The position numbers and the translations under genes are program-made. Shown here in pieces: positions 7,390 to 30,730 of a stretch of DNA of 64,000 bases; position 1 is the first letter of the stretch, and each line of letters begins with the position of its first letter. Origin of the DNA: Paenibacillus swuensis (lineage in GTDB: Bacteria > Bacillota > Bacilli > Paenibacillales > DY6); contig NZ_CP011388.1 of the NCBI RefSeq assembly GCF_001644605.1, forward strand, positions 3,128,501-3,192,500. The letters run 5' to 3'. The notes below the pieces were generated by a model. The model made no database searches, had not been told where the DNA came from, and saw only the letters and a list, made by a program, of their open reading frames with translations.

Positions 7390-7650
7390 AAGGAATGACG
7401 TTGATCGGGAGGAGTACGCAGCCAACCCTGCAGAGAGCGAAACCATTTGCTGAGAGGTTTCGCAGGATGTAATTGCGGAAAGTCGCCCGGGAGTTGCTGG
7501 ATCTGTACAGATCAGCCGGTTGCAGCCGTTATCTGTTGAGTGCCGTGTGCGGAGCTATGGGTTTAAACCGAGCTGAACATTCACACGGAACAAAGGTGGT
7601 ACCACGGAAGCTAAACCTTTCGTCCTTTGGGGCGAAGGGTTTTTTTGTTG
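7390..7650 (+). promoter_or_regulatory. Valine T-box riboswitch leader of valS
   Basis: Senses uncharged tRNA(Val) and permits readthrough into valS when valine is scarce. Seen directly: the AGTA-containing specifier-loop strand (GAGGAGTACGCAG, about 7409-7421), an AGAGAG...GCTGAGAGG distal stem-I element, a specifier candidate GTC (Val) at 7482-7484 in the context GAAAGTCG, and the canonical T-box AGGTGGTACCACGG (about 7594-7607). The antiterminator would compete with the terminator at 7615-7647. The codon reading follows from pairing the flanking helices CGCA/TTGCG and CGGG/CCCG. Confidence 0.93.
7615..7647 (+). terminator. T-box terminator of valS leader
   Basis: An 11-bp stem (7615-7625 with 7630-7640; loop TTTG) followed by seven T. 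It is the OFF-state terminator of the valine T-box. Confidence 0.92.
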
Positions 7651-13276: not shown

Positions 13277-13945
13277 TTGGGGTTTACGGAGGAGCACGAG
13301 CGATGGTTGCAGCAACATTTGGCAAGCAGGACCGGTGAGCGCAAAGATCGTCTGAAGCGTGGGCATGCGCATGGGGAACGATTGTTTTGTGAGAAGGTGT
13401 GGTGGCCTTTAGTTGGCACATTGGAGTACTTGCACCCAGAATATGAAGTGGCGGATTGGAGAGGGCGGCCGTATTTTGTGGATTTTGTATGGAAGAGAGG
13501 CTATGTGAATGTGGGACTGGAGATCAAATCATTTGGGACGCATGTGCAACATAGGGATCGGTCCGGTTTTCGCAAAGAAAATAATCGGGAATTGTACATT
13601 AGAGGACGGGGGGTGGAAGTACTATCGGTATCCTATGATGAAATTGTAGAGAATCCTTCATTGGTTATGTCTTTATTACAGCCCATATTTGCACCGTTGA
13701 TGCATAGAAAAGAATCGGAAAAACCATTTACTCGAAATGAACGAGACACCTTACGGCTTGCTGTGCGGCAGGGTGGTTTCATTCGTCCAGTCGATGTGAT
13801 GAATGAGCTGGAATTGGGACGCAAGAGCGTAGTGCTCATCATACAAAGTTTGTGCGAACAAGGTAAGTTATCCCCAGTGAACAACGGTGCTCGTACAACC
13901 AAATATGAATTGAACTGGTCAGAGATGGACTCGTGGAGAATTTAG
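13277..13945 (+). CDS. Nuclease-like (PD-(D/E)XK, DUF559/Vsr-like) protein with C-terminal winged helix
   Basis: Not an assigned gene. The 222-residue protein starts at TTG 13277 behind GGGGG. Residues 30-125 look like a small PD-(D/E)XK nuclease of the Vsr/DUF559 kind: an N-terminal acidic residue (E35 in HGERLF), D69 in RPYFVDF, and E82-I-K84 in VGLEIKSFG, in the usual order and strand context, followed by a strand-helix unit (VEVLSVSYDEIVENP). Residues about 152-212 resemble a winged helix (TRNERDTLRLAVRQGGFIR, then VMNELELGRKSVVLIIQSL). I recall proteins with similar N-termini as multicopy, poorly characterised genes in Paenibacillaceae; that is memory, not a search. The stop codon overlaps the first unit of a 51-bp tandem array. 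It sits between two conserved blocks as an apparent insertion. DNA binding and cleavage are inferred. Confidence 0.65.
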   Translation: MGFTEEHERWLQQHLASRTGERKDRLKRGHAHGERLFCEKVWWPLVGTLEYLHPEYEVADWRGRPYFVDFVWKRGYVNVGLEIKSFGTHVQHRDRSGFRKENNRELYIRGRGVEVLSVSYDEIVENPSLVMSLLQPIFAPLMHRKESEKPFTRNERDTLRLAVRQGGFIRPVDVMNELELGRKSVVLIIQSLCEQGKLSPVNNGARTTKYELNWSEMDSWRI

Positions 13946-14351
13946 TGTGCCTGGGGAAATTAAATCAGCGGAAAAGGGTGGATGGGTAGAAAATAGTGTG
14001 CCCAGGGACATTAATCTGGCGGATATAGGTGGCAGGGGAGCGAATAGAGTGCCTAGGGGCATTAAACTGACGGATATAGGTTGTAGGAGAGCGAATAGTG
14101 TGCCTAGGATCATTAAATCGGCGGATGTGGGTGGATGGGGATCGAATAGAGTGCCTAGGGACATTAAATCGGCGGATGTGGGTGTATGATGATCGAATAG
14201 AGTGCCTAGGGACATTAAATCGGCGGATGTGGGTGTATGATGATCGAATAGTGCGCCCAGGGACTTTAAATCAGCTGAAATGGGTGGATGGGTAGAAATT
14301 AGTGTGCCCAGGGACATTAAATCATCGGATGGTTTTGGGGGTAAAGATTGG
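13944..14351. repeat. Eight tandem 51-bp direct repeats
   Basis: Units start at 13944, 13995, 14046, 14097, 14148, 14199, 14250 and 14301, each exactly 51 bp with no insertions or deletions. Units 5 and 6 are identical; units 1, 2, 7 and 8 are more diverged and unit 8 decays in its second half. The best-conserved part is GTGCCTAGGGACATTAAAT at the start of each unit, whose first 12 bases form a near-palindrome centred on CCTAGG. A partial ninth relic may be GCGAATGGTGTCCC near 14366-14379. There are no unique spacers, so it is not a CRISPR array. Fifty-one is 17 codons, so long frames are open on both strands, but none has a convincing ribosome-binding site. The region to 14400 has no other gene. 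Confidence 0.95.
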
Positions 14352-27439: not shown

Positions 27440-27550
27440 TGCGTGTTGCAAAACATGCTATAACCGCACGAACCGGGTTCCATAAGTATCCGTTCTTTAA
27501 TAGAGACGAGTCACCCAGGCTAGGCGAGTCTGAGACATGAAGGAGGTGCA
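27440..27550 (+). promoter_or_regulatory. rplU: Probable ribosomal protein L21 leader
   Basis: A structured leader before rplU, with the stretch CCGCACGAACCGGGTTCC and the later inverted elements GACGAGTC / GGCGAGTCTGAG (27508-27536). Position and appearance match the L21 leader family of Firmicutes, thought to bind L21 or a ribosomal protein for autoregulation. I matched it by eye only. Confidence 0.55.
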
Positions 27551-28551: not shown

Positions 28552-28582
28552 AGCCCCTGGCGGTTTATCGTCAGGGGCTTTT
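28552..28582 (+). terminator. Terminator after rpmA
   Basis: AGCCCCTGGCG (28552-28562) pairs with CGTCAGGGGCT (28569-28579, one G-U), followed by TTTTG. Confidence 0.85.
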
Positions 28583-28673: not shown

Positions 28674-29410
28674 ATGATGAATGCTGGATGGATTCGATAC
28701 GTTTCTATAGGTTTGATCATAGCTGGGTTGCTCTTGTTTATGGCAGATCTGGACAAGCTATGGATTGATGCCATCGCCGCCACTGCGATTATTAGCGCAT
28801 ACGGGCTGCGTCTAAGCATGGAAGCAAGGACAAAGACGATTCAGAATGGTTCAGCCATCGCGAGCTGTTCAACAAAACGATTAATCACCACAGGCATGAC
28901 TGGATGAATGAATTACAGGTGCTTTATGGATATATTAGGTTGAAGAAATATGATTCACTGCCCTTATATCTGGACAAAATAAGAGACAAGATGTTAAAGG
29001 AAAGTCAGCTGTCCAAGTTGGGTGAGCCCGACTTGGTGTTGTTTCTGCACTCATATCGTACACTGGGAGGCACGATGGAGCTGGAAGTGGATCCGGAGGA
29101 AGGGTTGGATCTTTCTCATTTGAAACTTCACCAATCGGAGCTGGGCGCCTGGATTACAGACGTTATAAAGTGGTTTCAGACCTCCACGAAACCCGGCGAA
29201 GATCACTTTCACCAGTTGAATGTAGAGTTGACTTTGGGCAATCATGAATTAACGGTTCACTATTCGTTCTCGGGTGAAATAGATGAACAACAGCTCCAAT
29301 CGGCCATGAAGCGGCTCGTTTCGGAATACGAAAGTCTGGGGTTGCGATATTCCGTAACGGCCCAGCATGAAGAGGCCGATATTGCATTTGACGTGCCTTT
29401 TCATACATAG
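28674..29410 (+). pseudogene. spo0B: Sporulation phosphotransferase Spo0B, reading frame split
   Basis: Spo0B moves phosphate from Spo0F to Spo0A. Two pieces are seen. Frame A (28674-28907) encodes a membrane-anchored N-terminus (two hydrophobic segments, IGLIIAGLLLFMADL and IDAIAATAIISAYGL). Frame B encodes the Spo0B helical-hairpin and ATPase-like C-terminal region to 29410. The phospho-acceptor motif HHRHDWMNELQ straddles the ATG at 28904 in frame B, upstream of which frame B is open back to 28796 (encoding SEWFSHRELFNKTIN) with no ATG, GTG or TTG. Thus one base seems missing, or a -1 frameshift occurs, between about 28796 and 28904. Starting at 28904 would delete the active histidine (codon 28895-28897). 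Locus order rpmA-spo0B-obgE is as in B. subtilis. A sequencing error is possible. Confidence 0.78.
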
Positions 29411-29422
29411 AGAGGTGAAGAG

Positions 29423-30730
29423 ATGTTTGTAGATAAAGCTAAGATTAATGTAAAGGGCGGGGCCGGAGGTGACGGCATCGTTTCTTTCCGCAGAGAAAAG
29501 TACGTGGAACAAGGCGGACCCGCAGGGGGAGACGGCGGCAGAGGCGGCAGTGTGATCTTCCGGGTGGATGAAGGCTTGCGTACGCTGGTTGACTTTAAAT
29601 ACCAGAAGCATTTCAAAGCTGACCGCGGGGAACGCGGAGGAACGAAGACTATGCATGGCGCTAATGCGGAGAATATGATTGTTCGGATTCCTCCGGGCAC
29701 AGTCATCATCAATGATGACACCCAGGAAATCATCGCGGATTTGACGCGGCATGGGCAAGAAGTGGTGGTTGCCCGCGGCGGACGCGGCGGACGCGGCAAC
29801 ACCCGCTTTGCTTCACCGAGTACACCCGCGCCATACATCGCCGAGAAAGGCGAAGAGGGCGACGAGCGTTGGATCGTGCTCGAGCTTAAAGTAATGGCGG
29901 ATGTGGGGCTGGTCGGGTTTCCCAGCGTCGGCAAGTCGACGCTGCTTTCCGTCGTATCCGGGGCTCGCCCCAAGATCGGCGCATATCATTTCACAACGAT
30001 CACACCGAATCTGGGTGTAGTCGATGTGGGGAACGGCAAAAGCTTTGTGATGGCCGATTTGCCGGGATTGATTGAAGGCGCGCACGAAGGCGTCGGATTG
30101 GGCCATGAGTTCCTGCGTCATGTCGAACGGACACGCGTAATTCTCCATGTTATTGACATGGCGGCAACGGATGGACGGGACCCCTATGAGGATTATGTGC
30201 AGATTAATGAGGAGCTCAGACTTTATAATGCGAAGCTGTCAGATCGCCCGCAGATCGTGGCGGCAAACAAGATGGACATGCCGGAAAGCGCGGAGCATCT
30301 GATCGCCTTTAAAGAGAAAATGCAAGAGGCGGGACACGGGGATGTGGAAATTTTCGAAATGTCCACGGTAACGAAGCAAGGCGTGCAAGAAGCGCTTTAC
30401 CGTTTAGCAGAATTGCTGGATACCATCGCGGAAGCTCCGGTTGTTGAGGAAGTGTCCGCTGTAGAAGAACGAAAAATCTACAAAATGGAACCTAAAGGCG
30501 CAATCAACGAGTTCACCATACGCCGTGAGAATGAAATGTACGTCGTTGAAAGCAGCAGTCTGGAGAATTTCATTAACCGATACAACCTCAATCAGGAAGA
30601 CGTGTTGCAGCGCTTCGCAACCATTATGCGACGTATGGGTGTGGAGAACGAACTTCGCTCACGCGGAGCTGTGGACGGAACCATTGTGCGCATTGGCAGT
30701 TATGAATTTGAATTTGTTGAGTATGATTAG
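29423..30730 (+). CDS. obgE: GTPase Obg/CgtA
   Basis: Ribosome-associated GTPase needed for growth, stress response and sporulation. The 435-residue protein has the glycine-rich Obg fold (1-158; [20 protein letters not shown] and [14 protein letters not shown]), a G domain ([12 protein letters not shown] as G1, [16 protein letters not shown] as G3, NKMD as G4) and the C-terminal OCT domain (from about 345). GAGGTG lies before ATG 29423. It is 12 bases after spo0B, so probably cotranscribed. Confidence 0.98.

Follow-up and report, generated by a model that had tools for sequence, protein, structure and literature searches.

A split spo0B gene in Paenibacillus swuensis, very probably a recent null mutation or a single-base sequencing error

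The only copy of spo0B in the Paenibacillus swuensis genome is written in two reading frames. As the first-pass annotation of the window (the whole 64-kb stretch of DNA analysed here) had described, the membrane N-terminus lies in frame 0 and the phosphotransferase part in frame -1. The gene is a broken or mis-sequenced copy and not an intact member of the membrane-anchored Spo0B (Spo0B-TM) group. Very probably, the split reflects either a null allele of spo0B that arose recently or the loss of one base in sequencing. A real mutation in the strain has roughly an even chance, a base-call error in the record is a substantial possibility somewhat short of even, and recoding and a separate start of the second part have at most a slim chance between them.

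The split gene and its locus

The gene order at the locus is rplU, a small ribosome-associated gene, rpmA, spo0B, and obg, as named from the sequence and the known synteny (PMC12826061). spo0B sits between rpmA and obg, which is its known position in the synteny described for this interval (PMC12826061). An L21 leader RNA was also observed just upstream of rplU (27452-27541). The coordinates of the features are listed in Table 1.

Table 1. Features of the spo0B region, in positions of the window
Feature	Position	Strand	Description or basis
Terminator-like hairpin, rpmA-spo0B intergenic	28552..28579	+	hairpin scan
spo0B 5' part, frame 0	28674..28907	+	ATG start 28674, membrane segment, stop TGA 28905-28907, 77 aa
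spo0B 3' part, frame -1	28796..29410	+	phosphotransferase domain, 204 aa, without canonical start before the histidine
Most likely frame-change interval (linker)	28797..28856	+	codon usage, profile scan, frame -1 alignments with solved and soluble Spo0B
Presumed phosphorylated His codon, CAT in HHRHDW	28895..28897	+	sequence, homology
ATGA overlap, frame-0 stop and first frame -1 ATG	28904..28907	+	by-product of conserved Trp-Met-Asn codons
obg, intact downstream neighbour defining the locus	29423..30730	+	ORF list

The frame -1 stretch is preceded by a TAG codon (28793-28795) and closed by another (29408-29410), and both frames are open across an overlap of approximately 110 nt. The sequence HHRHDWMNELQ is encoded in frame -1 at 28886-28918; its presumed phosphorylated histidine was assigned by homology to His30 of B. 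subtilis Spo0B, in the established numbering. Two further statements of the first-pass annotation were confirmed. Frame -1 is open back to its upper boundary without a start codon, since ATG, GTG, and TTG are all absent before the histidine, and the sole ATG of this frame up to the conserved core is that at 28904, three codons after the active-site histidine codon. The start-like codons upstream of the histidine are ATA (28799), CTG (28865), and ATT (28880).

The product of frame -1 resembles Spo0B. It scored 51.7 bits against the helical domain SPOB_a of Pfam (PF14689; cut-off, 28.1) and carries the HHRHDWMN motif; the match to the C-terminal domain SPOB_ab (PF14682) was 15.3 bits (E 0.02), below the cut-off of 27. 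Against a Paenibacillaceae Spo0B profile, it reached 200 bits over profile positions 58-244. It also matched the solved B. subtilis Spo0B at 2e-8, and a profile of the relatives' Spo0B proteins retrieved the same solved Spo0B chains. These Pfam, profile, and solved-structure scores show that the resemblance exceeds chance. In frame 0, residues 4-31 are hydrophobic, with a Kyte-Doolittle value of up to 1.97, as befits a membrane segment, and a weak match to profile positions 1-65 was found.

Membrane-anchored Spo0B occurs in 92% of Paenibacillus (PMC12826061), and this frequency, together with the relatives' alignments, bears out the earlier expectation that a single membrane-anchored protein should be encoded here. 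The P. swuensis locus shares with the Paenibacillus Spo0B-TM genes the rpmA-spo0B-obg arrangement, the N-terminal hydrophobic segment, the linker, the HHRHDWMN motif, and probably the C-terminal domain (PMC12826061); however, its two halves occupy different frames.

Position of the frame change

The first-pass annotation had placed the break exactly at the active site, and this placement did not hold. When the two frames were stitched in silico at every codon and scored against a profile of 20 relatives, the score was nearly flat across the linker, so that the profile scoring does not fix the exact base of the shift. Codon usage, with 110 genes of the P. swuensis genome itself as the reference, gave a junction score that peaked at 28809 on a plateau too wide to fix the exact base either, and junctions from approximately 28869 onward were disfavoured. 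Frame -1 aligns with the solved Spo0B from approximately 28841, and it shares with the soluble relatives an ELFxxT-NH motif (ELFxxTxNH) directly before the histidine. Since the resemblance to Spo0B and this motif both begin in frame -1 ahead of the histidine, the junction lies upstream of the active site, in the linker. Within this poorly conserved stretch, the sequence comparisons place the frame change most likely between 28797 and about 28856.

The ATGA overlap at 28904 is a by-product. The conserved TGG ATG AAY codons (Trp-Met-Asn) always hold a TGA in the other frame, so the overlap arises automatically. Reinitiation at this ATG (28904) was considered and rejected, as the product would be a fragment without the histidine.

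spo0B in related genomes and the ways of expressing a split gene

The genus and the family contain only the P. swuensis genome, and all comparisons were thus made at the order level, where the best matches of the spo0B 3' part were approximately 30-50% identical. In the 417 relatives examined at full resolution (148 + 26 + 4 + 79 + 80 + 80), spo0B was an uninterrupted single frame in nearly all, a few genes being not judgeable at contig ends. It was broken in five (about 1%), each at a different site: one carries a nonsense codon, one a 20-bp tandem duplication, and the other three a frameshift. The nonsense codon (G174, L111) and the duplication (G386, L112) are in the linker, and the frameshifts are in the mid-protein (G381, L153), just after the active site (G217, L154), and in the C-terminal domain (G205, L155). 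Some of these alleles may themselves be sequencing errors; the G205 assembly is 90% complete. Among the other 50 genomes of the genus of G174, no internal stop or split was found (one is represented by a contig fragment only), and spo0B is intact in the other six genomes of the genus of G386.

The P. swuensis allele resembles these five in being disrupted while most relatives are intact. Each lesion and position is different, two being in the linker as in P. swuensis and three further downstream. Distinct lesions at distinct sites point to sporadic loss or error and not to a conserved device. The linker had been suggested as a hotspot of breakage by the first two broken relatives, and this idea was dropped once three others were found broken elsewhere. 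An internal-stop flag in G230 was dismissed as well, since the gene is intact and the alignment merely overran its natural stop; G187 and G005 have intact spo0B genes of the soluble type.

A programmed or leaky -1 ribosomal shift would fuse both parts into one membrane-anchored Spo0B. The direction of the shift is right, the overlap offers an open stretch of the required kind, and there are weak A-rich slip sites at 28832 (A_AAG) and 28874 (A_AAA). A programmed shift works only at a slippery site, most often with the help of a stimulator. However, no in-frame slippery heptamer (X_XXY_YYZ) was found by the scan, in accordance with the first-pass annotation, no run is longer than four A, and the downstream stem was not significant compared to shuffled sequences (z -1.44 and +0.69). 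Moreover, the match of frame -1 to Spo0B has already begun upstream of the A-rich site at 28874. Nor is the arrangement conserved: spo0B is a single frame in nearly all of the 417 relatives, and each broken copy has its own lesion at its own site. Set beside programmed -1 genes of the E. coli dnaX type, as generally known, spo0B has the overlapping 0 and -1 frames in common with them, but it has neither the slippery heptamer nor the stimulatory structure nor the conservation. We therefore regard such a shift as highly improbable. Among the three options that had been offered at first, a missing base and a loss of Spo0B both stand, and the ribosomal -1 shift falls for want of heptamer, stem, and conservation.

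The phosphotransferase part might instead be begun at a non-AUG linker codon, CTG 28865 or ATT 28880, and so be made in soluble form, as Spo0B is in the P. elgii clade. Naturally soluble Spo0B was found in several related lineages, one of which, the P. elgii clade, has been published, and the membrane part is thus dispensable there (PMC12826061). Nevertheless, the soluble relatives begin at an ATG approximately 30 codons before the motif, whereas the stretch of frame -1 ahead of the histidine lacks ATG, GTG, and TTG alike, and neither CTG nor ATT is preceded by an evident ribosome-binding site. In the P. polymyxa Spo0B-TM, deletion of the membrane segment abolished detectable interaction with the partner (PMC12826061). 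This start is likewise very doubtful. That an active Spo0B is made from the split gene by either route, an inefficient -1 shift or a non-AUG linker start, is very unlikely; if it were, the break would lower or solubilise Spo0B and so tune the entry into sporulation. Scarcely credible is a two-gene design, in which a small membrane peptide and a histidine-less truncated Spo0B, produced when translation restarts at the ATGA overlap, have a new regulatory role. ATGA overlaps often serve coupled translation, as is generally known, but the present one follows automatically from the conserved codons, and such a design gives no reason why the conserved HHRHDW is kept open upstream of the start.

Origin of the lesion and its expected effect

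No second Spo0B was found across the complete P. swuensis genome, a single contig of 5,012,599 bases (5.01 Mb; 99.97% complete). No match was returned when plasmid records were searched with blastn. Spo0A is intact, as is a Spo0F-like single-domain regulator at its usual site between pyrG and fba. The spoIIA operon, spoIVB, and the spoIIIA genes near spo0A, named from the aligned proteins and their order, are single frames in alignment with relatives. There is no sign of a decayed sporulation programme, and among the genes examined only spo0B is damaged, a mild argument against sporulation having been lost long ago.

The quality of the assembly was assessed by a frameshift census, in which 400 kb surrounding the window and 160 kb surrounding spo0A were set against the genes of two relatives. 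The census aligned approximately 128 kb and 75 kb of P. swuensis sequence, and in this total of about 204 kb there was no true frameshift besides spo0B. A split gene is detected only if each of its two pieces finds a match, and the census would thus miss breaks close to poorly conserved ends. The single apparent split was rejected, since the radC frame of the relative G360 had been drawn too long and ran into maf. The two census regions gave no sign of a noisy assembly. The census bounds the indel rate and does not clear the single base in spo0B; the rest of the assembly, which looks clean, argues mildly against a base-call error. With no other genome in the genus or family, the comparisons do not separate a mutation from a base-call error.

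We propose that this is an ordinary Spo0B-TM gene in which the linker joining the membrane segment to the phosphotransferase domain is, in net terms and modulo 3, one base short. As written, the ribosome would make the 77-aa membrane peptide and then stop, and the phosphotransferase part, with no usable start before the histidine, would give no working Spo0B. If the allele is real, phosphotransfer from Spo0F to Spo0A would be blocked and the strain would sporulate poorly or not at all. B. subtilis cannot sporulate without Spo0B (PMC12826061), and by analogy a strong defect in spore formation would be expected of P. swuensis if the lesion is real. The 204 codons downstream have stayed open and conserved, which would make a real lesion a recent one. 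Alternatively, the base was lost in sequencing. Two terminator-like hairpins were observed within the spo0B 3' part (29013-29036 and 29089-29112); as a candidate effect, they could lower transcription into obg if this part is untranslated.

Rich liquid culture repeatedly selects for the loss of sporulation-initiation functions, as published for spo0A (PMC12016532) and kinA (PMC11914059), and it has been cautioned that the sporulation genes of a sequenced spore-former may be frameshifted (PMC3533761). The visibly broken spo0B in approximately 1% of the relatives fits this known ease of losing sporulation genes, in culture or in the records. The finding matters mainly for annotation: before the base is checked, it would be premature to list the strain as devoid of the phosphorelay or as a case of recoding.

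Elsewhere in the window, a T-box leader (7392-7630) was observed upstream of an 895-aa aminoacyl-tRNA synthetase ORF (start 7665). Right after an ORF ending at 13945, there is a tandem array (13943-14331) of approximately 7.6 copies of a 51-bp unit with a 153-bp higher-order period; read on the minus strand, the array forms a repetitive ORF of 132 aa.
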